From Myxococcaceae bacterium (GTDB taxonomy: Bacteria; Myxococcota; Myxococcia; Myxococcales; Myxococcaceae): DNA of 61,175 nucleotides. Under the pieces are notes generated by a model. It was not told the origin of the DNA, made no database searches, and saw nothing but the letters and a program-made list of their open reading frames with translations. The position numbers were made by a program, and so were the translations under genes. The stretch spans positions 1 to 61,175 of the forward strand of contig JAFGNZ010000019.1 in NCBI GenBank assembly GCA_016926755.1, read 5' to 3'. Numbering within the stretch: the stretch's first letter is position 1; the number at the start of each line of letters is the position of its first letter. Positions 2-54,831 of this stretch are shown here, one piece after another.

Positions 2-2944
2 CCAAGCCTCTCCACCGTCTCCCGCCGTGGACTCCTCAGTCCAGGGAGCGAGATCCACGGTTCCTGCAAGAGAGCCAATCAGATCGAGGCCAATCAATAC
101 GAGATTCTCCAGCGTCTCGGAGAAGTCTTGCGCGAAGTGCGTGGCCTGAACTCGATGGCGATAACACACTTCGGTGTCATTCGTAATGACTTCGAACTTC
201 TCCGCGAGGCGATAGAGACAGAGGCACGCGAGAGCGCAGAGGAAGCATTCCAACTCGATGTTGCATTGGCGCGCACGCTATTTTCTGCCGACCGATACTT
301 AGGTTTTGAGACCGCTTACATTGAGAGACTCACGAGATTTTACCAGCACGCGATGAGCACGGCTCGGAGAAGTGCATTTAGCGGTCCGTCTGCACTCTCG
401 CCAGTTGAGCCAACATGGATGCGACGGATTGCGAAGGAAATTCTCGGGCGGGGGCGGGTCGATCTCTTATTCGCCACGCTTCCGGCTATTGTTGAGTCGT
501 GTGGTAGTCGACTCTCGCTCGCGCCAGAGGACACGCTGCGCAACCCTGTAGAATGGGCACGTGGCGCGGAGGCATTTCTAGAAGCCCGGACCATTGTCCC
601 TGAAGTTAGCGTCCTAGCGACGGCTGGGCTAACAAAAGAACTTTGGAAAGAGGGACTGTTCCTAAGAAATGCTGCCATTGAGGCTACATCTCCCGTAGTG
701 CTGCGCGCCGCAGCGAAGAAAGTGAGGGCGCACTACGATAGTGTGCTGCGGCCTTATCTGAAAAGTGTATTTGAAGAATGGGGCGCGGCCAACCTGAAGC
801 GCTACCTCTTTCGTTTCCATGGTCATTCGCGGCCGGACCTCGAACCAGACCGACGCTATTATGGATTGAGCAAGTATCCGCATGAAAGCAATCCTGATGG
901 GGCCGTTTCGTTCGATGAAGACCCAGTAGAAGCGGCAGTAGCCGCAGGCCTCATCCGTAAGAAACTGATCGAGTCAAAAGTACATACCGGCACGCATAGC
1001 TGGACCGATGAGAAATACCATCTTGAAGTTATCTCAGGTCGTTATGCTGGATTCGTTCTTGGAGCCATTAAAGAGTCATGGCATCATGACGACTACCGCA
1101 GCCGACGGTGCAGCCTCGAGGTGAGGAGCCTTAGCCATGGTGGAGAGTCTATATGGTGGGTCACGGAACTCGGCGAGGTATTAGGGTTTTGCATTCGCCT
1201 GCTTCGCGAGCACAGTCAATTTGATGTGCTGCGTAAAGCGTTTCCGGAAGTGCTGAAGGCAAAACTTAAACTTGAGGATTCCGTACTTGACCATCATGAA
1301 GCGCTGACCGGGAGCGCAGCTCTTTTGGGGGTACTCGGTCTCCTGTGCGGATCGCGTGCACCGTTTACAACTGATCAGTTGAGCGTCAAGAATGCCCCCA
1401 TGCTGGTTGCGCGAGAGGAACTTGCTGAGTTCCTCTCTGGGTTCATTGTGGGTGACTGGTTTCTGCGCGTACGGGACGTGGATTTGGATCGACTCATGAG
1501 GTACTTCCGTACACCAAGCGCAGCCGCGAGGACTGTTCTGTCAAGATTGTCCCCTGAGTTAAGAGCCGAAGTCGAGGCTCTTTCAGTAGGCCCGCTTTCC
1601 GCAGATTTTCGCTCTCGGATCGTCGTCGAACTGAATCGAGTTATCGCTGGCCCGAGCCTCAAAGATGCAAGCTGGCCGGTCGACCTAAAGCTTGATTCCG
1701 AGACACAGTATGCTCTTCGAAGTCAACTGCCTGGCGACGAGCGAAAGCTAAATCGGCTTCTCCTCTTGGATGCCTTCCCTGAAGCGTTCCCCCGCAGTGC
1801 ACTGCAAGGACGAGGACTGTCTCGGTTGCTCACAACCGATAAATATCAATCACTGGCAACTGCGCAGTCGCCCTTCCCGTGGTGGTCACAAGTTGAGGAG
1901 CTTTTGGCAAGTCGCGCATCTCGCGAGGAGTCTTGGGTCGAAGCAAGAGCACGGCGCTTGGATGGCGTACGGTCGGCTATTGAAGGCCCGTTGGTTATTG
2001 ACGAGACGCTTCGAAGAATTGCTGGATACGCATCAACGATGGGCATCACGCTTGAACCTCCATCACCTCCAGCCCACGTCGTTTTTTCATCGCAGATGGA
2101 AGCAGCGCTCCGTGACCTTGTTGCCGCTGCTGGTGATGCTTTCAAGGATCTCCGCGGTACTCCGCAGTCGGGTGCAAATGGTCGTGTCTGGCGCTCGCGC
2201 GTTGTTCTTCCTGGCGCAACTGAGTGCTTGATTGTTTTGGATGGCGTCGACCCAACCGCCGCGTTTTGCTCATGTTACTTCAATCCTGCGGACGAAAAGG
2301 CGACCGAGACTTGGTTCGAGGATCTTCGTACAGTAGCGGAGGCAGTACTGCCTATTGATTGGATAATGCAAGATGGTGGCAGTGCTGTCCACAAAATGGC
2401 TGCGCGCTTTGCTAGTCCTGTTGAAGACGGCGTGGCAGTGGAGCTCGCGGTTGCTCCGGGCTTCACGCTAACGGTGCTGTCACCCCGCGCGCGCACGCGG
2501 TTGGATATCCTCAATGGTGAGTTTACCAAGAGCCTGAAGGATGTGGTCGAAGCGGCTCGGCAGCGCTTCCGGAAGTGGTTCGATGACCCCCATAAGCCCG
2601 TGAAGCTCAAGGTCACTATCCCTGGCTTTGAATCGGTAGAAGTGACAGGTCACCCGTCATCGCATGGCTACTTTGACGCGATGCCCCAGCCTCGATACGA
2701 GGCAAAGAGTTCCACATGGTGGGAAGACCGCATGACCGAGGAGCGTTTCGAGAGGCTGAAGACCCTCGTAGAATCGACGTTGGGCAATACGTGGGTGAAG
2801 TCAACGGGCTCACCAGCCCAATCTGGACAGACGGGGGATCCCGACCCAGTTGTGTGGATTGAGAACAGCACGAATGTTCGCGTTGAACTCAAGTGTATCG
2901 AATATGTGTGGATTTATCTCACGATCTGCTCGCCGCCAACTTAG
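2..2944 (+). CDS. Large protein of unknown function, 5' end outside window
   Basis: I do not recognise this protein. The frame is open from base 2 with no stop, and the residues before the first possible internal starts (TTG at 128, ATG at 155) read like ordinary protein, so the gene most likely begins left of the window; at least 980 residues are present. It has no signal peptide, membrane segment or clear nucleotide-binding motif. It looks like a soluble, mostly helical protein with several Trp-rich patches and charged stretches. Its DNA is visibly more A/T-rich and its codon use less GC-biased than the NRPS genes further right, which fits recent transfer. It lies in the same accessory block as nuclease and ABC-3C genes, so a role in genome conflict is possible but only by association. 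Coding is convincing; function is unknown. Confidence 0.7.
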   Translation, partial: PSLSTVSRRGLLSPGSEIHGSCKRANQIEANQYEILQRLGEVLREVRGLNSMAITHFGVIRNDFELLREAIETEARESAEEAFQLDVALARTLFSADRYLGFETAYIERLTRFYQHAMSTARRSAFSGPSALSPVEPTWMRRIAKEILGRGRVDLLFATLPAIVESCGSRLSLAPEDTLRNPVEWARGAEAFLEARTIVPEVSVLATAGLTKELWKEGLFLRNAAIEATSPVVLRAAAKKVRAHYDSVLRPYLKSVFEEWGAANLKRYLFRFHGHSRPDLEPDRRYYGLSKYPHESNPDGAVSFDEDPVEAAVAAGLIRKKLIESKVHTGTHSWTDEKYHLEVISGRYAGFVLGAIKESWHHDDYRSRRCSLEVRSLSHGGESIWWVTELGEVLGFCIRLLREHSQFDVLRKAFPEVLKAKLKLEDSVLDHHEALTGSAALLGVLGLLCGSRAPFTTDQLSVKNAPMLVAREELAEFLSGFIVGDWFLRVRDVDLDRLMRYFRTPSAAARTVLSRLSPELRAEVEALSVGPLSADFRSRIVVELNRVIAGPSLKDASWPVDLKLDSETQYALRSQLPGDERKLNRLLLLDAFPEAFPRSALQGRGLSRLLTTDKYQSLATAQSPFPWWSQVEELLASRASREESWVEARARRLDGVRSAIEGPLVIDETLRRIAGYASTMGITLEPPSPPAHVVFSSQMEAALRDLVAAAGDAFKDLRGTPQSGANGRVWRSRVVLPGATECLIVLDGVDPTAAFCSCYFNPADEKATETWFEDLRTVAEAVLPIDWIMQDGGSAVHKMAARFASPVEDGVAVELAVAPGFTLTVLSPRARTRLDILNGEFTKSLKDVVEAARQRFRKWFDDPHKPVKLKVTIPGFESVEVTGHPSSHGYFDAMPQPRYEAKSSTWWEDRMTEERFERLKTLVESTLGNTWVKSTGSPAQSGQTGDPDPVVWIENSTNVRVELKCIEYVWIYLTICSPPT

Positions 2945-3407
2945 CTTGGTGTGGGTTTGACGCACTGTCAGTGCTTGTTGTCTCTTTGAGAGGTTTCACC
3001 TAGTTGGCGCAGCATGACAATGTGATCCTTGGTAGGTGAACTGCCTTCGTCGGGGCATACTCTGGACCAGCTGAAAGTCCAAAGGCCGTGGTGGAGTGGG
3101 GACCTGCGAGGATTTCTTTCCCGACATTAGGAGGCGCTGGCTTGCGTAGAGGGACAAGCCGAGGACCGGTAAACTCTGTGCCGTGGGGCGCTTCCATGTG
3201 CCGTCAGTGTGCCGTGCCTGCGCGGAATCAGGCGGAACGAGGTGGAACAGGGTGGGACGGGACGGGATGACGAACCCGAGCAAAATCAAGGGGATGGTGG
3301 GTAACGGCCCGTCCTGCTGGGGACGCGTCGCCTTAAGGCCCAGGCCGCCGATCTATGCTGCTCATGCTAGGCCCGGTGATTCAGCAGGGGCCGGCAGCGA
3401 GACTCTA
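2945..3407. other. Non-coding gap with three TGTGCCGT repeats
   Basis: About 460 bases separate the large unknown gene from the EVE-DUF3883 gene. The octamer TGTGCCGT occurs three times on the plus strand, at 3177, 3197 and 3208, followed by a run of imperfect GGTGGAAC/GGTGGGAC-like units at about 3230-3265. The downstream frame stays open back to 3183, but its first part reads as low-complexity Gly/Arg/Pro-rich sequence, so I treat it as leader. No promoter, tRNA or terminator could be recognised with confidence. Confidence 0.35.
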
Positions 3408-4424
3408 ATGAGGGGCAAGTACACAGGGGGCTACAACCTCTTCGCTGATGGGCGCCGGGCCTGGATGTTCCAGGCTTCTGACGAGGCCGGCTGGAATTTC
3501 GAGAAGCTCTTTGCAGACCCATGCTCGGTCAACCCGGAAGCTGGGAGGCAGATGTGCGGTGATGGTTGGGTAAAATCAGCCCCGAGCCGTAAGCGCATCA
3601 GGGACGAGTTCCAGCCAGGGCACCTCATGTTCCTCTACCAGGCGGCCCCCAAGAAGGCGGTCGTCGGCCTTGCGAGGCTTGCCTCTCACGGTTACGCGCA
3701 GCGCAGGAACCACGTCGCCCAAGGCAAGGGTACCTACTTCGACCTCGACTGGTGGATGTCCACAGCCCCGTTATCCTTCGACGCTTTCAAATCGGACCCA
3801 GTGCTCGCGGGCATGGAGAAGGCGCGAATCGCTCAGGGCACCATCTCCCGGGTCTCGGAAGCCGAGGCAAGGAGGCTCTTGGAGGTGCTCAGCCTTGATG
3901 CTGAGCAGTGGGCAGCGGTGAAGAGGGAGTGGCGGTTTCCCGCGCAGCGGAGTGGGAAACTACCGAAAGGAGTCGGGTCGGCTACACCAACCTTGAAGCG
4001 AGGCGGGGACGGAGGGCGAGAGGATGATCCCGAGGTTCGCCGAGCGATTGAGGCGCGCTCCATGCACGTCGTGCAAGAGCACTACAAAACCCTTGGTTGC
4101 AAGGTGGAGGTCACTGCTTCCACGCACCCATTCGACCTGAGGTGTCGCTGGGGCTCCAAGGAGGTTCGCGTGGAGGTGAAGGGAACTCGAGGGGAGGGGG
4201 CTATTGTCGAGCTTACGGTCGGGGAGGTGGAGAATGCCCGGGGAGCGGCTTGGCGCACTGATCTCGCTATCGTTTCGGGCATTGTCCTACGTGTCCAAAG
4301 AGGGATTCCAGTGGGATTTGGAGGGCAACTCCGGATTCTTGAGGACTGGAGTCCGAGGTTGGATGACCTCACTCCGACCCGGTTCCTCTACGTAGTTCCT
4401 CAAGAGCGCAAGGCATCGAAATGA
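3408..4424 (+). CDS. EVE domain plus DUF3883 (PD-(D/E)XK-like) protein
   Basis: The predicted protein has 338 aa. Residues about 8-150 have the layout of an EVE domain (PUA-like fold, a reader of modified bases): an opening that reads YNLFADGRRAWMFQ and a later block GHLMFLYQAAPKKAVVGLARL. Residues about 210-330 match the DUF3883 pattern, with the motif EVKGT at 256-260 preceded by an FDLR stretch, which is the (D/E)XK signature of a restriction-type nuclease fold. EVE and DUF3883 are both known from modification-dependent restriction proteins. I start at ATG 3408 because the open frame upstream (possible ATGs at 3183, 3267 and 3294) has no domain homology. The stop overlaps the HNH gene by four bases (ATGA), so the two are probably translationally coupled. 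Domain calls are by eye. Confidence 0.7.
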   Translation: MRGKYTGGYNLFADGRRAWMFQASDEAGWNFEKLFADPCSVNPEAGRQMCGDGWVKSAPSRKRIRDEFQPGHLMFLYQAAPKKAVVGLARLASHGYAQRRNHVAQGKGTYFDLDWWMSTAPLSFDAFKSDPVLAGMEKARIAQGTISRVSEAEARRLLEVLSLDAEQWAAVKREWRFPAQRSGKLPKGVGSATPTLKRGGDGGREDDPEVRRAIEARSMHVVQEHYKTLGCKVEVTASTHPFDLRCRWGSKEVRVEVKGTRGEGAIVELTVGEVENARGAAWRTDLAIVSGIVLRVQRGIPVGFGGQLRILEDWSPRLDDLTPTRFLYVVPQERKASK

Positions 4425-4915
4425 GCAAGAAACCAAAACAAAAGCTCAAAGCATCAGTTTCGACGACCAAGAGCATGATTCGACGTTCGCTGTTCGAAAT
4501 CATCGACCCGCAGCCGACGCCGGCTCAGGAGGCTCGCCTCTGGGTGCACTTTGGCTCCGCATGCGCCTACTGCGGCCTCACTCTCGTTCAGGGAGAGAAG
4601 CAGGCGCACCTGGATCACTTGGTACCCTCGTCAGCAGGTGGCCGCAACCATGTCGTTAACCGGGTGCTCGCCTGTGCCCCTTGCAACGAGGGTGGGAAGC
4701 GGGACCTCGACTGGGAAACTTTTCTCAGGGCGAAGTGCACTGTGGATGCGGAGTTCGAGACCCGGCGTGCCCGAATCCTGGCGTGGCAGGCGCAGTTCGA
4801 GGTGGGCGATCTTCAGCTGCCTCCGGCCCTCATCGAGGAGATCGAGAAAGCGAGAGTCCGAGTCATTGCGGCCTACGACTCCGCCGTTGCTCAGGTCCGC
4901 GCCTTCAAGCGTTAA
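4421..4915 (+). CDS. HNH endonuclease
   Basis: This 164-aa protein carries a compact HNH/zinc module in its first two-thirds: Cys48-x2-Cys51, then His63-Leu-Asp65-His66 within the motif HLDHLVPSSAGG, Asn80, and Cys85-x2-Cys88-Asn89. This is the usual beta-beta-alpha-metal nuclease layout with a structural zinc. The basic N-terminus and helical C-terminus could help DNA binding. It starts inside the stop of the EVE-DUF3883 gene (ATGA overlap). An adjacent modified-base reader, a PD-(D/E)XK-like domain and an HNH nuclease suggest modification-dependent restriction. A homing or mobile-element nuclease is less likely because of the tight coupling. Confidence 0.8.
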   Translation: MSKKPKQKLKASVSTTKSMIRRSLFEIIDPQPTPAQEARLWVHFGSACAYCGLTLVQGEKQAHLDHLVPSSAGGRNHVVNRVLACAPCNEGGKRDLDWETFLRAKCTVDAEFETRRARILAWQAQFEVGDLQLPPALIEEIEKARVRVIAAYDSAVAQVRAFKR

Positions 4916-5011: not shown

Positions 5012-6379
5012 ATGTTCGCTCAGACTGCTGAGGTCAAGCGTGTCTCTCCTCGGCCACGGCGAATCATCCTGATGTCTATCGATTGGAGCCGTGAAAAAGA
5101 CCCACGGCTCCCACTGGGGCACGCCTCGATAGTTGCCGCACTGCGGCAGGTGGGGGGGGATGTACAGGCGTTCTCTTTCGCAATCAACCAGGCTGCTTTC
5201 AGCGAGGAGTGCATCCTGTGGACCATCCTCGACAGTGCGCGGGGGGCGGAGCCGGAGCAGGTGGACGTGGGCATTGGCGTCTACGTGTGGAACGACCGGG
5301 TGGTGAAGAGGCTGCTGGTGGCGCTCCGGCGGAACGGCTTCAAGGGACGGCTCATCCTCGGAGGACCGCAGATTTCTTACGCGGGAGCAGGCCTCGAGCA
5401 GCTCTACCCCGAGGCGGATGCGTTCGTTCGGGGGTATGGCGAGGAGGCCATGGTGGCACTCGCCTCCTCGTCCGAGCGTATTCAGTTTGTGGGAGTTCAC
5501 TGGGCAGGGCAGGTGGATTCCGGTCTCCAGGCGCAGGCTCGGCTGGAGACGTTAGCCTCTCCCTTCCTCGGTAACGTGATCGACCTTTTCGGAGGGCAAC
5601 GGTTCATTCGGTGGGAGACGCAGCGCGGCTGTCCCTTCCGCTGCTCGTTCTGCCAGCACCGGGAGGCGGGCAACCGGCTTCGACGCCGGGACATTCCACT
5701 GGTGCGGCTGGAGCGGGAGATAGAACTGTTCGTGCGCTCAGGAGTGGACGATATCGCCGTGCTGGATCCGCTCTTCAATCTGGGAGACCACGCACTGGCG
5801 GTGCTGAGGACGTTTCTAAGGCTCGGTTATCGCGGGCGGTTGTCGTTGCAGTGCCACTTCTCGACGCTGGATGACGAGTTCCTCGACGCCTGTGAGGGGC
5901 TCGATGTGAGGCTCGAATTTGGTCTTCAGACCATCCACGAGCGGGAGGCTCGGGCGGTGGAGCGGGTGAATCACCTAGGGAAGGTGATGGAAGGCATTTG
6001 CAAGCTCCATGAACGCGGCATCCCATTCGAGGTCTCCATCATCTTCGGTCTGCCCGAGCAGACGTTGGAGTCCTTCCGGAGGACGGTCGACTTCTGCCTG
6101 CGGCAGCGGGTGCCGGTACTCAAGGCGTTTCCTCTCATGTTGTTGCGAGGGACCTCTCTGGAGCGAGAGAGGACACGGTGGGGGCTTGAGGAGAGCAGCG
6201 AGCCCATCCCCAGCGTCATCCGCAGCCACACCTTTGATGAGCAGGAGTGGCGACGTATGGAGGCGCTCGCGGAAGCACTTCGCCGGACAGAGGGTGAGCA
6301 TCCTGCTTGTGTCGAAGCTTTGGAGGAGTGTGTGGTTCCCTCCCCGGACACTGCTGGCTGGTGGTCGCCTGCTGCGTAG
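5012..6379 (+). CDS. B12-binding-type radical SAM protein
   Basis: The 455-aa protein has the two-part structure of the cobalamin-binding radical SAM superfamily. The N-terminal Rossmann-like half (about 15-175) includes the stretch RLPLGHASIVAALR and the block LILGGPQISY. The radical SAM core begins at RGCPFRCSFC, with Cys207, Cys211 and Cys214 forming the CxxxCxxC cluster motif. No clear DxHxxG cobalamin-ligand motif is visible, so cobalamin may bind base-off or not at all. Further conserved-looking blocks are LEFGLQT (about 303-309) and FEVSIIFGLPEQ (about 336-347), as in the methylthiotransferase/B12 radical SAM group. The substrate is unknown. It sits 96 bases after the HNH gene and 53 bases before the next unknown gene on the same strand, within a defence-like block, which is unusual for this family. 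Confidence 0.85.
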   Translation: MFAQTAEVKRVSPRPRRIILMSIDWSREKDPRLPLGHASIVAALRQVGGDVQAFSFAINQAAFSEECILWTILDSARGAEPEQVDVGIGVYVWNDRVVKRLLVALRRNGFKGRLILGGPQISYAGAGLEQLYPEADAFVRGYGEEAMVALASSSERIQFVGVHWAGQVDSGLQAQARLETLASPFLGNVIDLFGGQRFIRWETQRGCPFRCSFCQHREAGNRLRRRDIPLVRLEREIELFVRSGVDDIAVLDPLFNLGDHALAVLRTFLRLGYRGRLSLQCHFSTLDDEFLDACEGLDVRLEFGLQTIHEREARAVERVNHLGKVMEGICKLHERGIPFEVSIIFGLPEQTLESFRRTVDFCLRQRVPVLKAFPLMLLRGTSLERERTRWGLEESSEPIPSVIRSHTFDEQEWRRMEALAEALRRTEGEHPACVEALEECVVPSPDTAGWWSPAA

Positions 6380-6432
6380 GCGCGTGGGCCCCTGACAGAC
6401 GACCGAGACGAACACGCCACCCAGAGAAGCGC

Positions 6433-7833
6433 ATGGTTTCCGAGAACCTAATCGACTGGAAGACTGCCTCCGAACTGGGGCTGAAGCGCGTGCGGATCCT
6501 CGACCTGCGAGTCAAGGCACACCGCAGCGGCGGCATCTTCTTCATTGAGGAACTTGTTCAATACGACAACGGCCAGAGGGGCTGGCGATTCCGTACCGGC
6601 GAGGGTCCCATGGGCAACTCGTTCATCCACAAGTTCAAGACCAAGGCCAAGGCGGAGGCCGAGATCGCATTGGTCCGCCTTGACATGGTCTTGCGCGAGG
6701 CGGATGCCGTGCTGCGAGATGAATTCGGCATCGACCATCTCCGCCGCGACAACCTGATGCGTCTGTGGGGGGATCACACGACACGCGAGCCGGGCAGGTT
6801 ACCGACTGCCGGGGAACTTGTAGCCCTGTTTCGCGAACAGCGTGCCACCCTAGCTGCCGCGCTGGACGCGATTCGTGCCCAAGACGGCGGCGAGCAGCAG
6901 CCGCGGGATTACGAACTCTTGTGGGCCTTCAAGGAGGGCCGCCGGAGCGTCACGGAGTTGGTGGTGTGGTGGCGCGAGAGGCTGGAGATGCAGGAGGCGC
7001 GGCGCGTCTCCTCCGAACTCAAAGAGCGAAAGGCGAAGGAACGCTCCGAGCGCAGGGCACGTGAGGATGCCTTTCTGCAAGCCAAAGCAGCCGAGAAGGC
7101 CTCTGCCTTGGTGCCGCCGGTGCGTGAGGCGCTATTGCTGGTCGGCCGGGCGGCATCGAAGTCCGTCCTCGAGCGCATCGCGGTGGCGTTGTGCGGAAAG
7201 CCCTACCTGCGGCACGTCCTCATGGTCGAGAGCGGTGACCCTCGGCTCTACGTCTCCAAGGACGGGCTGGTGTGGAAAGAGTGGGGTCGAGGCGAGACGT
7301 ACGAGCGCAAGCGTCGAATCGCGGCCCGTGCAGTGATCGCCGACGCCTTCGGCATGGACCCTAAGGACAACTGGCTCAAGGTGCGTGGCGCGCTGCTGAA
7401 GATGCTGAAGCCTAGCAACCTCGACATGCTGCACCGGAAGGATGTTCAGGACGCGCTGGAGGAGGCGCGCGCGGCCGGGCGGACGCTGGTCGTCATCCGC
7501 CAGCTGGCGTTTCTGTGGGACGAGGACGCTGGTGAATGGTATCTACGAGAGGTCGAGCGCCGCGACAGTGCAACAGCCTCCGGTTGCACCCTCTGGGCCG
7601 AGGGTCCTATCGAGTCCACCAACTATGGTCGCATCATCGTGCTGCCCTACGTGAAGGAGGACGGCACTCAGGTGGTTGGCCACACCCGCAACGCGCCCCA
7701 CGAGGGGGGGGCGGAGCCGCGGACTGAGCCCAAGGTCATCCTCTTCGCGGTATACGACGAACTCGGCCGCGATGACACCTGGGATCACTACGGCAACGAG
7801 ATCGTTCCGGATGACGACGAGGTGGATGTCTAG
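6433..7833 (+). CDS. Protein of unknown function with central coiled coil
   Basis: I do not recognise this 466-aa protein. I start at ATG 6433 because AGAGAAG lies just before it and because the upstream part of the open frame overlaps the end of the radical SAM gene and reads as noise. Residues about 180-225 form a long charged helix rich in Arg, Glu and Lys, likely a coiled coil. The rest looks globular, with a very acidic C-terminal tail. There is no signal peptide or membrane segment. It follows the radical SAM gene by 53 bases on the same strand and converges on the ABC-3C operon. The pairing suggests partner or substrate of the radical SAM enzyme, but that is inference from position only. 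Confidence 0.7.
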   Translation: MVSENLIDWKTASELGLKRVRILDLRVKAHRSGGIFFIEELVQYDNGQRGWRFRTGEGPMGNSFIHKFKTKAKAEAEIALVRLDMVLREADAVLRDEFGIDHLRRDNLMRLWGDHTTREPGRLPTAGELVALFREQRATLAAALDAIRAQDGGEQQPRDYELLWAFKEGRRSVTELVVWWRERLEMQEARRVSSELKERKAKERSERRAREDAFLQAKAAEKASALVPPVREALLLVGRAASKSVLERIAVALCGKPYLRHVLMVESGDPRLYVSKDGLVWKEWGRGETYERKRRIAARAVIADAFGMDPKDNWLKVRGALLKMLKPSNLDMLHRKDVQDALEEARAAGRTLVVIRQLAFLWDEDAGEWYLREVERRDSATASGCTLWAEGPIESTNYGRIIVLPYVKEDGTQVVGHTRNAPHEGGAEPRTEPKVILFAVYDELGRDDTWDHYGNEIVPDDDEVDV

Positions 7834-7934: not shown

Positions 7935-9854
7935 TCAGCGCCACTTCTTGTTCAGGCTGACGTGGTGGGCGCCCGGGAGATCAGCGAATGCACGTCCCGA
8001 GGCGATGAGCTGGGCACCCCGCAGCTCCGGCTTGGAGAGCAGCTTCACGAAGGGGGTCAGCAGGTAGTTCTCCTGATCGGAGATGGCGAAGTCACTGAGG
8101 TTGGCGGGGAAGTCGAGCAGCGCGAATCCAGGGTAGGTGAACGGCTCGGTACGACTGAGCTTCAACCATGCATAGTGGTAAGCCAGGAAGAAGTACGCCC
8201 GGAGGTTTGCACCGAGCTTGCGGCTCCAAGGTCGCCCGTCGACGAGGAACTGCACCGCATTCTTGGACACGTTGATGGAGACCCTACGCGCTTCCCATAT
8301 ATTGCGGCCTTCCGCGTCCAAGGCATTGAGGTAGTCCGTCATCCCATCGGCCACCTGGTCCCCGAGCGTAGTGAAATCGGGCGCGGCTTCCTTCTCCACC
8401 ACCTGGGACTCGAGGTGGCCAATCTCCTTACGAAGGTCATCCAGGTGCTGTGCGAGCGCCTCGCGCCGCGAGAGGGCGCTTTCAATTCGCTGGAGCTGAC
8501 GGAGTCGCTCCTGGAGGCGACCCGTTTCATGGGCGGTAAGTCCAAGTGCCGGGGGAAGGATCCAGGCGGCAGCGGTGCGCACCGGTTGAAGCATGCTTTC
8601 CAGCCGGGAGGTGCTGTCCTCCACATCGCGGAGCTTCCGACGGTCTAGGTCCAGGTCCCCCTGCGTCTTCGACAGGAGCTCCTGAAGTTCGCCGACTTCT
8701 TCCTTCAGTTGCTGCATCTCGAAGTCGAGGCGGGCCGTCGTTGCCGCGGCCTCCTCGGAGCGGGGCTCTTGCGGCTGGTGGCAGAGATAGCAGGTGCCCG
8801 GGGCCGCGGCCTTGCGGCTGATGGGCCGGTCACAAACGGGGCAGTGGGTGACGTGGAGCGGTCCGAGGATTGCTCCTGCGGCCCGTGCGCGCTCCAGCTT
8901 GCCCAACTCCTCCTTTGTGCTCTTGAGATGGGCGGACAGCTCCGCAACGCGCTCCAGTCCCTTGTCTACGGCCACCTGGAGCTCTGACCGCCGGACGCGT
9001 GCTGCGTCCAACTCAAGACCGAGCTTTTCAAATTCTGAGGCCCTCGGCTCGTTCTCCGCCGAAGCCCGACTCTCGGCGGCCCGGCGCAGCTCCTGCATGG
9101 CGGTCTCCCTCTGCGCTTCCTGGGCAGCAATGTCCGCCTGCAACTGCGTCATGGCGCTGGCGAGGGAGTCCCGCGTGAAGCCGGCGCTGGCCTCCTGGAC
9201 GTAGACGAGTTCGCGCGCCACGTCGTCCAGCGTCGCCGCGAAGTTCTCCTTCTGCGCCGCGAGCCTCGCCTCGCGCTTCTGGGCGTCAACGAGCTTGGCG
9301 TAGTCCAAGGAGAAGATGGCGGGAGCGGAACCGATGAACTGCGAGAACACGGCGAACTGGTCGGCTTCGGGCTGCTTTAGAGCCAGATCACTCCACGAAC
9401 CTTCGTGACGGTAGATGTGCCGAAGCAGAGTGCGCCAGCTGAGCTCGGGCCAGGTGTTCTGGGAGTAGGGGTTGCCCTTGGGGATGTAGACCACGGGGAT
9501 GTTAAGCGCCGCGAGGAAGAAGGCGCTGAAGTCCGCTGCGGGCATCGCGCTGCCGTCGACGAACACCTTGCCCTTGGCGCCTTTTTCCTTCCAGCGGCGT
9601 TCGAGCACCATCGGCTTGCCATCGATGGCAAGCTCCACCTGGGCACGCACATACTTGTTGGCCAGGTCCTCGCCGACCGCATCCTCGATGGTGCCGGTAT
9701 CGCCGAAGAGGTAGTCGAGCATACGAAGCCAGCTGGTCTTGCCGGTGTTGGGCTCTCCGACGATGACGTTCACGCCGGAGCTGAACTCGAGCACTTCTTC
9801 CGTGTCGCCTTCCACACGCATGAGCCGGCGGACGCTGAGAATCTTCGAGGTCAT
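7935..9854 (-). CDS. ABC-3C system SMC/Rad50-like ATPase
   Basis: The 639-aa protein is built like an SMC/Rad50-type ATPase. A Walker A motif GEPNTGKT lies at residues 33-40, and two long coiled-coil arms (about 185-330 and 365-480) flank a four-cysteine centre (Cys338, Cys341, Cys355, Cys358) resembling a zinc hook or ribbon. The C-terminal ATPase lobe has a Walker B-like stretch GFALLDFPAN, in which Phe stands where the catalytic Glu usually follows Asp. It is the last gene of a three-gene minus-strand operon and overlaps the middle gene by four bases. ATPase plus small middle component plus effector is the defining layout of ABC-three-component (ABC-3C) conflict systems, where the ATPase is thought to sense invasion and license the effector. 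The family call is strong; the system call rests on the neighbours. Confidence 0.8.
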   Translation of the reverse strand: MTSKILSVRRLMRVEGDTEEVLEFSSGVNVIVGEPNTGKTSWLRMLDYLFGDTGTIEDAVGEDLANKYVRAQVELAIDGKPMVLERRWKEKGAKGKVFVDGSAMPAADFSAFFLAALNIPVVYIPKGNPYSQNTWPELSWRTLLRHIYRHEGSWSDLALKQPEADQFAVFSQFIGSAPAIFSLDYAKLVDAQKREARLAAQKENFAATLDDVARELVYVQEASAGFTRDSLASAMTQLQADIAAQEAQRETAMQELRRAAESRASAENEPRASEFEKLGLELDAARVRRSELQVAVDKGLERVAELSAHLKSTKEELGKLERARAAGAILGPLHVTHCPVCDRPISRKAAAPGTCYLCHQPQEPRSEEAAATTARLDFEMQQLKEEVGELQELLSKTQGDLDLDRRKLRDVEDSTSRLESMLQPVRTAAAWILPPALGLTAHETGRLQERLRQLQRIESALSRREALAQHLDDLRKEIGHLESQVVEKEAAPDFTTLGDQVADGMTDYLNALDAEGRNIWEARRVSINVSKNAVQFLVDGRPWSRKLGANLRAYFFLAYHYAWLKLSRTEPFTYPGFALLDFPANLSDFAISDQENYLLTPFVKLLSKPELRGAQLIASGRAFADLPGAHHVSLNKKWR

Positions 9855-10405
9855 TCCGAGATCACCTCGCCGAGCTTGCGCTCCGCAACCTCGGGCACGA
9901 ACAGCTGGTAGATGAGGTCCTTGAGTGCCGAGCCCGGCCTCTTCCCGAGGACGGAATAGACGCGTTTCATGATCTCACCGAGTTCCGCGAAGCTGGGCTG
10001 CTTGGCGAGTTCCTTTGCCGCCGCGGTCCCGCTCGGGGTGAGCTGAAACCTGTACGACCTTGCACCCTCCTTGGTCACTGTCACCAGCCCTCGGCCTTCC
10101 AGGTACGCGAGCACATGGTAGTAGCGGTGGTCCCACGGGCCGTAATGGTGGCGCACCATGGCCGACTCGCTGCTCTCAGGCAGGCCCGAGATGGGGGTCT
10201 TCAGCGCCTCGCAGGCACGGGCGAAGAAGGCCGGATAACGCACGAAGAAGTCGAGCTTGGCGAGCTTCGTCAGACCGTCAATCCGCCCCTTGATGCCGCA
10301 GTGATGCAGCAGGAGCAGCAGCCTCGCCGCGTGGAGTTCGACGATTTCATCGGACACGAGCGGACGACCAGCGGGGTAGTTCGCGAGGTTCCGGATGGAC
10401 TTCAT
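9851..10405 (-). CDS. ABC-3C system middle component
   Basis: This 184-aa protein lies between the nuclease and the ATPase, overlapping each by four bases. Its N-terminal half is helical (HAARLLLLLHHCGIKGRIDG), and the middle reads like a winged helix (MVRHHYGPWDHRYYHVLAYL followed by GLVTVTKEGARSYRFQLTPSG). A small winged-helix-like protein in this position is the expected middle component of an ABC-3C system, a linker between ATPase and effector. No catalytic motif is visible. Identification depends on context as well as the fold-like pattern; a stand-alone regulator of the operon is the main alternative. Confidence 0.7.
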   Translation of the reverse strand: MKSIRNLANYPAGRPLVSDEIVELHAARLLLLLHHCGIKGRIDGLTKLAKLDFFVRYPAFFARACEALKTPISGLPESSESAMVRHHYGPWDHRYYHVLAYLEGRGLVTVTKEGARSYRFQLTPSGTAAAKELAKQPSFAELGEIMKRVYSVLGKRPGSALKDLIYQLFVPEVAERKLGEVISE

Positions 10406-11556
10406 GACCCGTCCCGCTGGTAGGAGTGCACCTTCCGGTTCACCAACTCGTACATGCTGCCCACGAGGTAGCTGACTGGCGGTCGGGTATCCGGTGCCAT
10501 GCCTCCGTGCAGTGCTTCAAGCTCCTGCAAGCAGCGCAGGTGGAACTGGAGGGGCGTGTCCTTGAACCTCCCGGCTGCGTACCGGAGGCGGAGGCTGTGG
10601 AGGGTGTCCTCCACCATCCTGGCGATCTGCTCCCGATCCTTAAGGGTGAGATACGCCGATCGCCGCTGGTCGGCCCTGAAGGCGTTCTGCCGGAACAGGA
10701 TGTTCTGGATGTCCATTTCCGGAAGCCCGATGCGGGCCAGCGCTTGGCGAAGTGGTGAACCTCCTGCTGCCGCGTGAGGGCGCAGGAGGTCGTTCACTTT
10801 GCTCCGGACCTCTGACAGGAGCTGGTTGAAGAGGATCTTTTTCTCAGTAAACGGCTTGGGCACCCGCTCGTTGGCTGCCTTCCAGACCGTATGGAGCACG
10901 AGGTCGTAGATGGCCTCGATGTGGTCCGGCGCGCTGATGGTGAAGACCTCGTACAGGTAGTGCCCGAGGCGGCGGGTCGTGGCGTTCTGGACGTCCTGCT
11001 GCGTTCCACGGACGTCCCAGAACATGGAGCGCAACCAGAAACGGATGCCGCTCGGACCATCGCTATCGGCTCCGGGAAGGCGCGCGATGATGGCGGCGGC
11101 GAGCTCGTCTATGGCCGCCTGACCGGGCTGACGGTCAGGGGCGTCGCGGGGCAGCGTAAGGTGGTGAAGCTCCTTCTTCGTCCTGTCAGAGGTGACGAGC
11201 CTGAACCGGTGAGGTTCGTGGCACCGTGCATGCTTCAGGGACTTCTCCAGAATGGACGTCCCCACTGCATCTTTCTCGCGGCCGCATAGCGCAGGCACGG
11301 TCCACAGCGTGTCGCCCTGGTCGGACTTCACCTGAACGAATTCGATGTGTTCCTGGCCAGCGTCCGTCCAGACGAGCGTGATGTCGTCGAGCACCTCACA
11401 CCACACGGCCGCCAGGGTCCCGTGGGTCTGCATCATCTCGACGCAGAAGTCTGCGGCGACGTGATCCTGGTAGGCGAAGCCAACCCGAGCTGTCGTCCCA
11501 CCGGACTCCAGTGGTTCGAGATCATGGATGGAAGGTGGCTTGGGGGTGGGGAGCAC
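10402..11556 (-). CDS. DUF4297-type dsDNA nuclease, ABC-3C effector
   Basis: This 384-aa protein opens with a DUF4297-like nuclease domain: the block GTTARVGFAYQDHVAADF at 20-37, an acidic pair Asp57-Asp58 after Glu54, and IEFVQVKSD at 71-79, whose Glu72/Gln75/Lys77 fit a PD-(D/E)XK core. The same nuclease family serves as effector in Cap4 proteins and in some ABC-3C systems. The C-terminal half (about 130-384) is helical and unassigned, perhaps a docking or sensor region. It is the first gene of the operon. The start is GTG, chosen because AGAGGA lies six bases upstream, and the stop overlaps the middle-component gene by four bases. The predicted role is DNA cleavage once the ATPase complex is activated. 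Confidence 0.75.
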   Translation of the reverse strand: MLPTPKPPSIHDLEPLESGGTTARVGFAYQDHVAADFCVEMMQTHGTLAAVWCEVLDDITLVWTDAGQEHIEFVQVKSDQGDTLWTVPALCGREKDAVGTSILEKSLKHARCHEPHRFRLVTSDRTKKELHHLTLPRDAPDRQPGQAAIDELAAAIIARLPGADSDGPSGIRFWLRSMFWDVRGTQQDVQNATTRRLGHYLYEVFTISAPDHIEAIYDLVLHTVWKAANERVPKPFTEKKILFNQLLSEVRSKVNDLLRPHAAAGGSPLRQALARIGLPEMDIQNILFRQNAFRADQRRSAYLTLKDREQIARMVEDTLHSLRLRYAAGRFKDTPLQFHLRCLQELEALHGGMAPDTRPPVSYLVGSMYELVNRKVHSYQRDGS

Positions 11557-11736
11557 GACGTCCTCTTCTGTACAGTCGAAGTCTCAATCAGGGTTCCATG
11601 AAGCTCCAGTATTTCTGGCGGCTCTCGACATGGGCGAACTCGTTCCAGCGGTCATGCCCTGGCCTGCTGGCAGTGCTGGTAGGTCGGCAAGTTTGTCCGC
11701 AGAGCCCTGCGTAGGGCCCACTTCCAGCTAGGTCGT

Positions 11737-11760
11737 GTTGGGTAATTTGTTGGGTAATTC
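11737..11760. repeat. Tandem 12-mer next to tRNA fragment
   Basis: Two adjacent copies of GTTGGGTAATTY lie at 11737-11748 and 11749-11760, about 90 bases before the tRNA fragment. Short direct repeats next to an attachment site can be integrase or excisionase arm-binding sites, but nothing here proves that. The rest of 11557-11848 shows no gene I can support; it contains the promoter side of the ABC-3C operon. Confidence 0.4.
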
Positions 11761-11848
11761 GGGCTGCCATCGGCGGCCAATGCGGGCCAGAAGAAGCCAA
11801 ATTCCGAAGTGGTTATAGCAGGTTACGATATATGCCCAAGGAGGCTCT

Positions 11849-11898
11849 ACTCATTCGTAATCAGTAGGTCCCCGGTTCAAATCCGGGTGTCGGCTCCA
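11849..11898 (+). tRNA. 3' fragment of tRNA-Thr(CGU), probable att site
   Basis: The bases read as the 3' half of a tRNA. There is an anticodon arm ACTCA/TCAGT with one mismatch around the loop TTCGTAA (anticodon CGT, threonine), variable loop AGGTC, T arm CCCGG-TTCAAAT-CCGGG, 3' acceptor strand TGTCGGC, discriminator T and an encoded CCA. No 5' half is present: the acceptor partner GCCGACA and a D arm are absent from the sequence just upstream. This is the classic remnant left where an element has integrated into the 3' end of a tRNA gene. The element would lie to the left, with the intact tRNA at its far end outside the window. It is not a working tRNA as it stands. Confidence 0.8.
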
Positions 11899-11917
11899 GA
11901 GAAAGCGTAGGAAAGAC

Positions 11918-11950
11918 GGGCCGTTGGGGAGCACCCCAGCGGCCCGTTTC
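11918..11950 (+). terminator. Hairpin terminator of the original tRNA gene
   Basis: A 12-bp stem, GGGCCGTTGGGG (11918-11929) with CCCCAGCGGCCC (11934-11945), closes over the loop AGCA and is followed by GTTT. The stem has one T-G wobble and no mismatch. It lies 20 bases after the tRNA fragment and probably ended the intact tRNA transcript before integration. Confidence 0.75.
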
Positions 11951-11971
11951 CGTTCGGGCCGGGGCTTTCCC

Positions 11972-13151: not shown

Positions 13152-13266
13152 GAGTTCCTCCCATGAAGGACTCTCGACGCCACCAGCGCGGCTTATGCAG
13201 CGTCCACGCCATGGCACGTAGGAGGTGCCCGATGAGATCAGCGCTCCTCTTCGTCTCGCTGCCTTG

Positions 13267-19448: not shown

Positions 19449-33446
<13,998 letters not shown>

Positions 33447-33450
<4 letters not shown>

Positions 33451-40792: not shown

Positions 40793-41203
40793 TCAGGGCA
40801 TCTCCACCAACATCCAATACTTGTTGAGGGCCAGCATCAGCTCCACGAACGAGGAGAAGGTCACCGGCTTGAGCAGGTACCCCGCCACGTTGAGCTGAAA
40901 GCTCTCCATCCGGTCCTTGTCGTCGTTGGAGGTGGTGAGCACCACCACCGGGCTCGCGCGAAGCGCGGCGTCCGCACGCACGGCTCGCAGAAACTCGATG
41001 CCATTCATCTTCGGCATGTTGATGTCCAGCAGGATGAGCCGGTTCTGCGTGGGCACCGAGCCGTTCCTCAGCATCTCCAGCGCCTCCACGCCATTGCCCG
41101 CGACATAGAGGGGATTGCTGATGTTGTTCTTCTTGAAGGCCCGCTGGACGTTCATCACATCCACCTCATCATCTTCAACGAGCAGGATGTTCAGGGTTCG
41201 CAT
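40793..41203 (-). CDS. Single-domain response regulator
   Basis: The 136-aa protein is a stand-alone receiver. The acidic pocket is in NILLVEDDEVD (Glu10, Asp11, Asp12), the phospho-acceptor is Asp60 in LILLDINMPKMNG, the conserved Thr lies in VVVLTTSND, and the Lys in YLLKPV. No output domain follows, so it acts by protein contact or phosphotransfer. It lies 15 bases after the PAS histidine kinase gene on the same strand and is its likely partner. Confidence 0.93.
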   Translation of the reverse strand: MRTLNILLVEDDEVDVMNVQRAFKKNNISNPLYVAGNGVEALEMLRNGSVPTQNRLILLDINMPKMNGIEFLRAVRADAALRASPVVVLTTSNDDKDRMESFQLNVAGYLLKPVTFSSFVELMLALNKYWMLVEMP

Positions 41204-41218
41204 GATTCAGACTCCATT

Positions 41219-43072
41219 TCATTTCTTCAGGGTGGATTTGGGCCAGGTGAAGAAGAAGGTGGCCCCCTGGCCCACTGCGGACTCCACCCGCACGACACCG
41301 CCGCGGGCCTCCACGATCTTCTTGACTACCGACAAGCCAATGCCTGTCCCCTCTACCTCGTCCCGCGCCCGCAGCGTCTGGAAGATGCCCCAGATGCGCT
41401 CGTGGTACTCGGGAGAGATCCCTGCGCCGTTGTCGGCGATGGAGAACTCCCAACCGTCGGCCGTCTCGGTGCAGCGCACCCTCACGAGCACATCCTCGCG
41501 CATGGCGTGCTTGAGCGCGTTGCCCATGAGGTTGAGGAAGACCTGCTGAAGAGGCACCCGCTCGGCGTGCAGCAGGGGCATGGGCGTCTCGACCTGGATG
41601 GAGGCGGGAGGCGCCGGGGAGAGCAGCTCGATGCTCTCGGTCAGGAGCGCTCCCACGTCAATGCTCTCGGGCTGGTCGCGCACCCGGCCGGCACGGCTGT
41701 AGGCGAGGATGCCGTTGATGAGCGCCTCCATCCGGTGGACTCGCCCCGTCAGCAGCCGCATCTGCTCGCGTGTCTCATCGGTCATGATGTCCTTCAGGTC
41801 ATCCCCAATCCATTGCGCCAGGTTGGTGATGCCCCGCAAGGGGGCCTTGAGATCGTGGCTCGCGACATAGGCGAACTGATCGAGCTCTCGGTTGCTGCGC
41901 TCGAGCGCGGCGATGAGCCGATCGCGCTCGGCCTCGGTGCGCTTGCGAAGCGAGATATCCATGATCACGCTGGCCACGCCCAGGTGGTAGCCATCCGGTG
42001 CGCGCACGGGCGCCGTGCACGCCAGCCAGGTGCACACCTCGTCGGAGGCCTTCGTCTTGCCGGTGCTCTCGAAGGTGATCGTCTCTCCCGTGGTGAGGAT
42101 CTGGCGGAGGAGGCCTTCCGGGTGGGGGTCCAGGTCCGGGAACAGCTCGCGCGGCGTGTGCCCGATGTGGGCCTCTACGGACAGGCCGTTGATCTCCGCC
42201 AGGGAGCGGTTGATGCGCATGTAGCGCAGCTGGTCGTCGAAGAGCGCCATGCCCGCGGGGACGGCATCGAAGAAGGTATCGAGCGCCGCGCGCACCTGCT
42301 CCGCCTTGCGGCGCTCCTCCTCCGCCCGCTCGATGGCGGCTCGGCTCTCCTGGATATCCGTGCTGTAGCTGAGCCAGGAGAGGATGCGGCCCTCGGCATC
42401 GCGCAGCGGGAAGCCTCGACTGCGGTGCCAGATCCAGGCGCCATCGTGACGGCGGTAGCGGCACTCCATCTCGTAGGGCTCGCCGGTGGCCAGGCTGCGG
42501 CGCCAGCGCTGGGCGATCTCGGGGAGATCCTCCGGATGGATGCCTTGCCGCCACGCCGCGGGATCCGTCTGGCTCGGAGAGAGGCCCGTGAACGTGTACC
42601 AGAACCGGCTGATGTAGTCGGGCGTGCCGTCCGGCCGAACGGTCCAGAAGGTCAGCGGCATGTTCTCGAACAGCGCTTGGAGCCGGGCGAACTCCGTCTC
42701 GAGCTGCCGCATCCGCTCCCGCGGCGCCTGTTCCTGATCGAGCGCCATGAGGGTCACGGCCACATGAGGAGCGCCGCCCTCTCGAGTCACGAGCGGCTGG
42801 GCGCTGACTCGCAGGTGGGCCTCACCCAGGGCGAGGTTCTGGGAGGAGGCCCTCCCCGTCTCCTGCGCCTGTCGGACCAGAGACAGGGCGGGGTTCCCCG
42901 ATGAGAGGGAGAGCTCCTCATACGCGCGACCGAGGAGCACCTGGGGGTTCTCTCCGAGCAGCTGAGCGAACTCCGCGCTGCACTCGGTCAGCCGGCCAGA
43001 GGAGTCAAAGATTGCCATTCCTTCTTGAGCGGGCAGGCCGTTGAAGGACGAGAGTGCTGCCGGAAGCGTCAT
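41219..43072 (-). CDS. Multi-PAS sensor histidine kinase
   Basis: The 617-aa protein has three PAS-like segments (about 10-115, 130-255 and 265-385; the second contains WHRSRGFPLRDAEGRILSW), then a HisKA helix with the phospho-His in ASHDLKAPLRG, and a HATPase domain (FLNLMGNALKHA, DNGAGISPEY, GTGIGLSVVKKI). No membrane segment is seen, so it is probably cytoplasmic. It follows the large NRPS-PKS gene by 103 bases and is followed by the receiver gene. It may control the neighbouring cluster, but myxobacteria have many such kinases and nothing proves a link. Confidence 0.9.
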   Translation of the reverse strand: MTLPAALSSFNGLPAQEGMAIFDSSGRLTECSAEFAQLLGENPQVLLGRAYEELSLSSGNPALSLVRQAQETGRASSQNLALGEAHLRVSAQPLVTREGGAPHVAVTLMALDQEQAPRERMRQLETEFARLQALFENMPLTFWTVRPDGTPDYISRFWYTFTGLSPSQTDPAAWRQGIHPEDLPEIAQRWRRSLATGEPYEMECRYRRHDGAWIWHRSRGFPLRDAEGRILSWLSYSTDIQESRAAIERAEEERRKAEQVRAALDTFFDAVPAGMALFDDQLRYMRINRSLAEINGLSVEAHIGHTPRELFPDLDPHPEGLLRQILTTGETITFESTGKTKASDEVCTWLACTAPVRAPDGYHLGVASVIMDISLRKRTEAERDRLIAALERSNRELDQFAYVASHDLKAPLRGITNLAQWIGDDLKDIMTDETREQMRLLTGRVHRMEALINGILAYSRAGRVRDQPESIDVGALLTESIELLSPAPPASIQVETPMPLLHAERVPLQQVFLNLMGNALKHAMREDVLVRVRCTETADGWEFSIADNGAGISPEYHERIWGIFQTLRARDEVEGTGIGLSVVKKIVEARGGVVRVESAVGQGATFFFTWPKSTLKK

Positions 43073-43175
43073 GCGGGGGGACCATATTACAGTCAGCTCC
43101 CGCGCGCCTTTTCTCGGGCCGTCACGCAGCCGCGCAGGAGCGACCTGGGAGTCGCTCTCTTCCGAGCGAAATCCT

Positions 43176-53282: not shown

Positions 53283-53357
53283 GGATGAGGGTTCAGAGTT
53301 GGTGTCAGCATTCTAACGCTCCGTGAACCCTGTTGCTTTCACCTCCTCCGATTTTCA

Positions 53358-53422
53358 TTTCCGTGCAGCGCGGGTGTGAAAAGGCATTCGGAGTTCACTT
53401 TCCGTGCAGCGCTGATGTGAAA
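53358..53422. promoter_or_regulatory. Pair of 24-bp direct repeats, candidate operators
   Basis: Two copies of TTTCCGTGCAGCGC-nnn-TGTGAAA lie at 53358-53381 and 53399-53422. They are identical except for two of the three spacer bases, and their starts are 41 bp apart, close to four helical turns. They stand 76-140 bp upstream of the NRPS-PKS start and about 150-215 bp upstream of the divergent histidine kinase. A nearby CTTTCAC (about 53335) is the reverse of GTGAAAG. This arrangement is typical of a regulator binding two sites on one DNA face. The rest of 53283-53574 shows no gene. Confidence 0.6.
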
Positions 53423-53574
53423 GAGGAAGCGGACAGGAACTGGGGGGAGCGAAGCGCAGAAGGTGCTCCAGCGGCGGCAGGGCCCTGGTAGAGTGCGGCA
53501 GCGGGTGGTTCCCCTCATGACAGTTGCGCACGGGCTGGCATATATTCGAGGCGCCTCGGCTCCCTGGGGGGGTC

Positions 53575-54831
53575 ATGTCACATACTAGACACAATCCGCT
53601 GGCGCCTGAGTGCTCGTGCCAGTCCGTTCGCGCAGACGAAGCGCTCTTCCAGGGCCAGCACCGGCGGCTCCTTCGATCGATCCTGGCCACCCTCTCCGAA
53701 GGCATCTCCATCACCGATGCCAGGGGGACCCTCCTCTATTCCAGCCCCTATGCCAACCAGCTGTTCGGCGTCCGCGGCCTGGCCACCGAGCCCGCGCAAG
53801 GGAACACCCTCGGGCTCTTCTGCTCGGATGAGCAGACGCCCTTCCCGCGCGAACAGCTGCCCCTCTGGCGGGCGTTGAAGGGAGAGGAGGTCCGGGATGT
53901 GGACCTGTTCATCCGCAACGAGAACGTGCCGCAAGGCAGGCACGTCCGCTGCCATGGCATCCCGCTGCGCGATGAGCAGGGGCGGATCATTGGCGGCATG
54001 TCGCTCGTGAAGGACCTGGACAAGGCCCGCCGGAGCGAAGAGGAGAAGCGCTGCAAGCCCAACGAAGAGCTCGAGCGCCGCATCGTCGAGCGCACCGCCG
54101 AGCTCGAGTTCGCCAACCGCGAGCTGGAGGCCTTCGCCTACTCCGTGGCTCATGATCTGCGCACCCCGCTGCGCGCCATCACCCACTTCAGCGACGCGAT
54201 GACGGAGGACTGCGCCGGCCAGCTGGACGCGATGGGCCTGGACTACCTGCGGCGCATCCGCGGCGGGACCCAGCGCATGTCCGAGCTCATCGACGGCATC
54301 CTGGCGCTCTCGCGGGTCCACCGCACGGCGCTGGTGTCCAGCCAGTGCGATCTGTCGGCCCTGGCGCGGGCCGTCTCCGAGCAACTCCAGACCCAATACC
54401 CCAGGCGCACCGTGCGCTTCACCCTCCAGGAGGGGCTGGTGGACCGGGGCGACCCGCAGCTGCTGCGCTCCGTGTTGGAGAACCTGCTGGGCAATGCCTG
54501 GAAGTTCACGCGCGAGCGCCCCGTGGCCGAGATTGAGTTCGGCGCGACGCAGGGGCAAGGGGTCCGCACCTACTTCGTGAAGGACAACGGCGCTGGCTTC
54601 GAGATGGCCTACCAGCACAAGCTGTTTGGCGTCTTCCAGCGGCTGCACGCGCAGTCGGAGTTCGAGGGCAACGGCATAGGTCTGGCCACGGCGCAGCGCA
54701 TCATCCGCCGCCATGGCGGGCGCATCTGGGGCGAGGGCCAGCCAGACCAGGGCGCCAGCTTCTTCTTCACCCTGAACGAGTTCCCTCTCCCCTCATCCAC
54801 CGTCGTTCCCCCTGGATCCCCCCATGACTGA
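53575..54831 (+). CDS. PAS sensor histidine kinase
   Basis: The 418-aa protein has a PAS domain (about 30-145, GISITDARGTLLYSSPYANQLFG), a coiled linker with the motif ERRIVERTAELEFANRELE, a HisKA site in YSVAHDLRTPLRAITH, and a HATPase domain (LENLLGNAWKFT, DNGAGFEMAY, GNGIGLATAQRIIRRHGG). It is soluble by inspection. I start at ATG 53575, which follows a G-rich ribosome-site-like run, rather than TTG 53524. It is divergent from the NRPS-PKS gene and shares its repeat-bearing control region. The stop overlaps the receiver remnant. Confidence 0.9.
   Translation: MSHTRHNPLAPECSCQSVRADEALFQGQHRRLLRSILATLSEGISITDARGTLLYSSPYANQLFGVRGLATEPAQGNTLGLFCSDEQTPFPREQLPLWRALKGEEVRDVDLFIRNENVPQGRHVRCHGIPLRDEQGRIIGGMSLVKDLDKARRSEEEKRCKPNEELERRIVERTAELEFANRELEAFAYSVAHDLRTPLRAITHFSDAMTEDCAGQLDAMGLDYLRRIRGGTQRMSELIDGILALSRVHRTALVSSQCDLSALARAVSEQLQTQYPRRTVRFTLQEGLVDRGDPQLLRSVLENLLGNAWKFTRERPVAEIEFGATQGQGVRTYFVKDNGAGFEMAYQHKLFGVFQRLHAQSEFEGNGIGLATAQRIIRRHGGRIWGEGQPDQGASFFFTLNEFPLPSSTVVPPGSPHD

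Follow-up and report, generated by a model that had tools for sequence, protein, structure and literature searches.

A displaced tRNA-Thr(CGU) fragment as the very probable right attachment site of a defense-carrying mobile element in a Myxococcaceae bacterium

Introduction

Integrase-driven integration in myxobacteria is known from the Myxococcus phage Mx8, which integrates using a tRNA gene, and the insertion described here would be another case of such integration. However, the Mx8 integrase shows no significant similarity to the integrase of this study and, judged by eye, possesses an arginine at the position expected for the catalytic Arg I.

Genomic islands residing in tRNA genes have been mapped by Islander, and the class of anticodon-centered attachment sites is listed in the parts of that account considered here (PMC4383910). 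With the islands described there, the insertion in question appears to share a regenerated target tRNA, a displaced 3′ fragment, a tyrosine integrase, and the anticodon-centered class of site, while, against the same parts of that account, it would differ in also bringing a terminator for the tRNA, located between the core and the arm sites. A further parallel is presented by the PYG1 island, for which the sections considered report that a partial tRNA called by a gene finder is really one of two direct repeats (44 bp in PYG1), but that island is archaeal, it occupies a tRNA-Gln, and its DNA is different (PMC9897764). As to a tRNA-Thr island of myxobacteria, none was found in the literature searched (titles and the beginnings of abstracts, among the matches listed). 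The insertion is of a known kind, a tRNA-gene island, newly mapped here: a mobile element almost certainly entered a tRNA-Thr(CGU) gene by site-specific recombination, leaving its attR in the stretch of DNA analyzed.

The Fragment and its Intact Partner

The window, that is the whole stretch analyzed, is one complete contig (C199) of 61,175 bases, from a draft genome (G000) of 9.59 Mb in 409 contigs. The fragment (Table 1) derives from a tRNA-Thr(CGU) gene, of which it retains the 3′ part, namely the anticodon arm, the T arm, the 3′ strand of the acceptor stem, and CCA, and its description in the first-pass annotation as a 3′ end lacking the 5′ half agrees with the sequence, with Rfam, and with the fold. 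ARAGORN calls a 70-nt “tRNA-Thr (cgt)” at 11825-11894, forced over the fragment. With this call scoring 19.6 bits in Rfam, versus a gathering score of 29, and with the fragment folding no better than its shuffles (z −0.87, versus −4.80 for the intact gene on contig C355), a functional tRNA at this place is rejected, and we consider the sequence a fragment.

When the whole genome was searched with a 50-base pattern at up to three mismatches, two places emerged, the fragment itself (no mismatches) and C355:33117-33166 (one mismatch), with no hits for the controls, and a shorter pattern of 27 bases, at the same tolerance, identified the same two places and no third copy. As the sole mismatch falls on the fourth base, 46 bases are identical (window 11853-11898 and C355:33121-33166), the latter being part of an intact tRNA-Thr(CGU) gene, C355:33091-33166.

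Table 1. Features of the window; profile matches are given with their E-values where available.
Feature	Position	Strand	Evidence
Open frame of 938 aa, no family match, near the left end of the contig; coding status uncertain	128..2944	+	ORF
NOV_C/EVE-like protein	3183..4424	+	NOV_C 2.6e-5; EVE below cut-off
HNH endonuclease	4421..4915	+	Family match
B12-binding radical-SAM protein, candidate defense family PDC-M51A	5012..6379	+	1.2e-147
Unknown protein, phrog_22329-like	6307..7833	+	Profile match
LmuB SMC-like ATPase	7935..9854	-	1.3e-39
LmuC-like protein	9851..10405	-	1.6e-15
LmuA-like nuclease, Lamassu operon	10402..11556	-	Cap4_nuclease 1.8e-23; PADLOC HamA 5.4e-44, LmuA 4.6e-13
Putative left-of-core attachment arm of the element (P-arm)	11690..11852	+	Matches in family genomes
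Two putative arm-type sites TGTTGGGTAA, 12-base period	11736-11745, 11748-11757	+	10-mer scan
Displaced tRNA-Thr(CGU) 3′ fragment, almost certainly attR	11849..11898	+	Sequence, genome pattern search
Hairpin after the scar	11910..11951	+	Fold; role by analogy with G092/G013
Block with NRPS/PKS gene (43176-53282)	40793..56454		83-91% identity; between tRNA-Thr and core in G020
C-terminal part of TauE/SafE gene, cut by the contig end	60972..61175	-	N-terminal part opens C115 (reverse complement)

The Other End of the Element

The first-pass annotation had proposed that an intact tRNA-Thr(CGU) sharing some 46 bases with the fragment, along with a tyrosine integrase, should exist elsewhere. Both are present on C355, where the intact tRNA is directly followed by a strong terminator, by the motif TGTTGGGGAATC TGTTGGGTAACG TTACCCAACA, and by a tyrosine integrase gene (33275-34417; Phage_integrase, 1.4e-9) that starts 109 bases past the tRNA. 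Facing the integrase is a small gene for a helix-turn-helix protein (HTH_17, 2.6e-6), regarded here as a candidate for an excisionase.

The 10-mer TGTTGGGTAA is found on C355 at 33236 and, inverted, at 33248, beside the integrase, and the pair in the window sits about 90-110 bases left of the fragment. In the five contigs or stretches of this genome that were scanned, the 10-mer occurs at no further place (a Markov model predicts about 0.8 copies for the whole genome), and the double arm pattern is found once in the whole genome. These copies have the appearance of arm-type sites for the integrase, placed on either side of the core, and since they flank both tRNA copies, the part of C355 to the right of the tRNA and the part of the window to the left of the fragment most likely represent, as far as can be judged from sequence, attL and attR of one element. 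In other genomes, TGTTGGGTAA is found to the left of a tRNA fragment in G092 (two copies), G091 (two), and G137 (one), and it is absent from the 60-80 kb examined around tRNA-Thr in all six congeners. Likewise, the P-arm is matched at an E-value of 0.001 or better in four of the 96 genomes of the family (G091, G092, G137, and the genome under study), and in all four it runs into a tRNA-Thr 3′ fragment.

The element measures at least 26.6 kb plus the assembly gap; its middle is missing, no sequence connects C355 with C199, and the distance from the intact tRNA to the fragment is not measurable because the assembly is broken between the two contigs. What we infer is the binding of the integrase to its sites, the continuity of a single element from C355 into the window, the exact point of crossover, and current mobility.

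A Homologous Element and its Empty Site

Relatives of the integrase, at an E-value of 1e-20 or better, are encoded in 39 of 195 genomes of the phylum, this genome included. The closest are those of G092 (84%) and G020 (71%, broken), both located directly after tRNA-Thr(CGU), along with the same type of terminator and the arm motifs. A more distant relative in G038 (43%) starts about 150 bases past a tRNA-Thr(CGU), in that case without the 10-mer, and others are found elsewhere, such as that of G013, some 2 Mb from its tRNA-Thr; the clade as a whole is not tied to this tRNA.

The most complete comparison is presented by G092, a genome of another genus, in which a single contig carries, in this order, the tRNA, the integrase, the arms, 14.0 kb of DNA, another pair of arms, and a 3′ fragment of the tRNA. 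Within the homologous part, the G092 integrase is truncated after residue 333. The empty site is found in G013, of the same genus as G092, which aligns to both G092 flanks with a 46-base overlap at the 3′ part of the tRNA. The hairpin that follows the tRNA in G013 aligns with the hairpin that follows the fragment in G092, and thus in G092 the native terminator was displaced and a new one was supplied by the element. G020 possesses a relic of the integrase, and neither a second copy of the tRNA 3′ part, in the 107 kb beyond its tRNA, nor a P-arm was found there. An order-level relative carries an intact tRNA-Thr with, ~150 bases beyond it, another 3′ fragment of tRNA-Thr (G025:C39, ~25.4-25.6 kb), which is perhaps what is left of an element that excised or decayed.

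The intact copy, the integrase, the common arm sites, and the comparison of G092 with G013 all support the original suggestion that the fragment marks the right border of an island and is a scar of integration into a tRNA gene. Within G000, and likewise within G092, both 3′ halves of the tRNA have the same T stem, although relatives differ, and this agreement could come from repeated excision and re-entry or from gene conversion.

The Terminators

The fragment was also said to be followed by a strong hairpin terminator. The strength of the fold holds (−37.3 kcal/mol for 11905-11965, z −3.86), but the T run is short, and a terminator scan did not report this hairpin, while it did report the one after the intact tRNA on C355. 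Another expectation was of a relative lacking the island in which the tRNA would be followed by the hairpin at 11,918; by eye, this hairpin follows the tRNA in none of the six congeners, the equivalent pair of empty and occupied sites being provided by G013 and G092 instead. By analogy with that pair, the hairpin after the scar is probably the one that stood downstream of the tRNA earlier and was displaced by the insertion, and the element would bring its own terminator for the tRNA, located between the core and the arm sites.

The terminator type found at attL is also present in G001-G004, where homology to C355 runs through the terminator, and in these genomes no repeat, arm, or integrase was found at tRNA-Thr. 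Either the elements took this type from hosts similar to G001-G004, or those genomes bear a trace of an earlier insertion. The same homology had suggested that the C355 tRNA was wholly native, a notion that was dropped, as G092 and G020 place this terminator type inside the attachment module.

The Cargo

Lamassu systems are defined by an lmuA effector together with an lmuB SMC-like gene, often along with lmuC. The three overlapping genes beside attR match the models for LmuA, LmuB, and LmuC (Table 1), with the nuclease gene scoring higher to the HamA than to the LmuA models, and a role in defense is predicted for them. The DNA left of the fragment had been characterized as accessory, more A/T-rich, and encoding nucleases and ABC-3C. 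The GC content (0.61 and 0.63 inside the element, 0.69 and 0.71 outside) and the nuclease genes are in accord with this, but the “ABC-3C” genes, by their profile matches, are better named Lamassu.

To the right of the tRNA, C355 encodes a bSEFIR protein (2.8e-66), a VapE-type primase/helicase, a DUF932 protein, and a kinase. The proposal of defense genes as cargo is thus sustained, with Lamassu, the PDC-M51A candidate, and bSEFIR being predicted through model matches. Phage satellites (P4- or PICI-like) combine an integrase, a regulator, and a primase, lack structural genes, and are mobilized by a helper phage; of these genes, an integrase, HTH proteins, and a VapE-type primase are seen here, in an element whose middle is missing and which may or may not be such a satellite. 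Genes for a relaxase or type IV secretion, as expected of an integrative conjugative element, were not found among the eight proteins left of the scar in the window and the eight right of the tRNA on C355 that were compared with Pfam, the same middle being missing here.

The cargo in G092 is different, including DUF2169, PAAR-like, and DUF6484 genes and none of the defense genes. Among the open frames chosen for comparison, the integrase alone is common to the two elements at the protein level; by DNA, they have in common the integrase with attL, the attR arm, and one further stretch of 199 bases. With the integrase and the attachment ends common and the cargo different, one attachment module carries different cargo.

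The Integrase

An alignment of 20 loci (own included, of the 55 integrase matches listed), one of them a broken row without the Arg I site, reveals a histidine at the position of the catalytic Arg I in 19 of the 19 rows that cover it, followed six residues later by an invariant arginine. The histidine of the HxxR motif is also replaced, in 19 of 19 rows, by glycine (15), alanine (2), or serine (2). The lysine is kept (19/19), as are Arg II, the second histidine, and the nucleophilic tyrosine (18/18 rows covering each). In terms of the canonical RKHRH pentad, Arg I and the first histidine are not matched and the other residues, with the tyrosine, are. In a profile alignment to XerD (1a0p), the histidine of the integrase falls on an arginine that we take to be Arg I of XerD. 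Searches of phages identified three weak Arthrobacter records, and searches of plasmids none; a weakly similar Arthrobacter phage integrase is, by eye, canonical at both places.

Arg I is less conserved, or shifted or absent, in some members of the IntCTnDOT and IntDes groups, according to the parts of PMC8138268 considered here, and so this kind of active-site change is already known. The clade in question resembles those members, as described there, in lacking Arg I at its place, and differs in having a histidine in every row and glycine, alanine, or serine at the first histidine, the comparison being one of descriptions. No description of this clade with histidine for Arg I was found in the literature searched. 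We tentatively propose a rearranged active site for the clade, with histidine at Arg I, glycine, alanine, or serine at the first histidine, and an invariant Arg264 that may supply the lost charge, in the manner of the second arginine of IntDOT, in an element that would re-equip the tRNA it enters with its own terminator; for this proposal as a whole the balance, as read from sequence, is still slightly unfavorable.

The Genus Locus and the Right Flank

To the left of tRNA-Thr, all six congeners show synteny with C355, and the core genes found downstream of the tRNA in relatives are on contig C115 in our genome. The distance from the end of the tRNA to the core point is about 2 kb in G001, 4 in G003, 28 in G004, 6 in G005, 5 in G006, 160 in G002, and 30 in G020, which marks tRNA-Thr(CGU) as a hotspot of insertion both in this genus and in a neighboring one (about 2 to 160 kb, seven relatives). 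Downstream of the tRNA, the six congeners yielded no convincing repeat of the tRNA-Thr 3′ part (records of 60-80 kb, about 10 kb of each preceding the tRNA; in G002, the 50 kb beyond the tRNA were covered), the matches obtained being stray ones of 12-18 bases at E-values of 1.3-4.8. In G002, the closest relative, the ~160 kb from tRNA-Thr to the core (G002:C5:105564-265995) has short matches to the NRPS/PKS genes of the window.

A TauE/SafE gene is interrupted both at the right end of the window and at the end of C115 that faces the tRNA. As the N-terminal part of this gene is present at two contig ends, C115 and C202, this link between C199 and C115 is ambiguous by itself, and the join rests on synteny in G020. 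There, downstream of tRNA-Thr, a block matching the NRPS/PKS-bearing part of the window is found in the same orientation, directly against the core point carried by C115, a position that places the window at the tRNA-Thr locus. A 212-base match to G002:C5, 161 kb from its tRNA, had suggested a location elsewhere, which was rejected because the match is to the TauE gene, with two N-terminal copies in our genome, and because of the placement in G020. The gene at 12061-13212 was likewise rejected as an anchor for the right flank, being multicopy, with at least seven other places in its own genome matching parts of it; it has a sub-threshold match to Myxo_Cys_RPT.

The DNA to the right was originally read as chromosome and biosynthesis. 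The biosynthetic part stands, with NRPS and NRPS/PKS genes present, but the genus core is reached only after about 53 kb of accessory DNA, made up of 49.3 kb in the window, perhaps ~0.45 kb of gap (judging from the missing part of the TauE/SafE gene), and 3.2 kb of C115. This right-hand stretch is mosaic in composition, with matches to G002:C21 and to the tRNA-Thr hotspot of G020 at 40.8-56.5 kb, and to G002:C46 (92%) at 56.6-60.9 kb, where two MacB/FtsX-type genes are found.

Alternative Explanations

Decayed copies of tRNA genes do occur, and the missing 5′ half would be consistent with a chance or ancient duplicate of tRNA-Thr, with no integrase element involved. Set against this are the 46 identical bases, the common arm sites, the adjacent integrase, and the homologous element with its empty site, making such an origin so improbable as to be negligible. 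It is also very unlikely, if less extremely so, that the ends of the element belong to different loci, the window contig residing elsewhere and the fragment resulting from insertion into a secondary site. The right end of C199 could indeed join C202 as well, but the block in G020, between tRNA-Thr and the same core genes and in the same orientation, argues against such an arrangement.

A far more serious variant of the main explanation, in which the fragment would still be attR, is a pile-up of two or more elements, the biosynthetic DNA, equipped with a tRNA 3′ end and a hairpin of its own, being the first to arrive and the element with the integrase and the defense genes following later. It gains its weight from the absence of the window hairpin after the tRNA in six of six congeners, whose terminators are unlike it, and it is favored by the about 53 kb right of the scar that are not core in congeners, by the capacity of the hotspot in relatives, and by the scattered homologs that the stretch at 56.6-61.2 kb has in G002. 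On the other side, the 27-base pattern detects no third copy of the tRNA 3′ part in the genome, and no second tRNA copy accompanies the block that borders the core in G020. We regard such a history as quite possible, though somewhat short of probable. Whether in one step or more, the insertion of a mobile element in tRNA-Thr(CGU), with the fragment as its attR, is the reading we retain.

Proposed Mechanism and Conclusion

According to this reading, the attP of the element would have borne its own copy of the 3′ half of the tRNA. The tyrosine integrase would bind core sites around the anticodon stem-loop along with the TGTTGGGTAA arm sites, and strand exchange would take place inside the 46-base block of identity, most likely in the anticodon loop, as suggested by the left edge of the identity. 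The host 5′ half would join the 3′ half of the element together with the element-borne terminator, forming attL on C355, so that the tRNA would have stayed whole, and the old 3′ half of the host would be pushed to the far end, as the attR in the window. Between the two ends would lie the Lamassu operon, the other likely defense genes, and the VapE-type primase.

In conclusion, the right end of what is almost certainly a defense-carrying mobile element is now fixed. The evidence points to an attachment module that carries quite different cargo across genera, defense genes in this genome, PAAR-like and DUF2169 genes in G092, and the integrase clade that would serve this module presents a testable exception to the usual active site.
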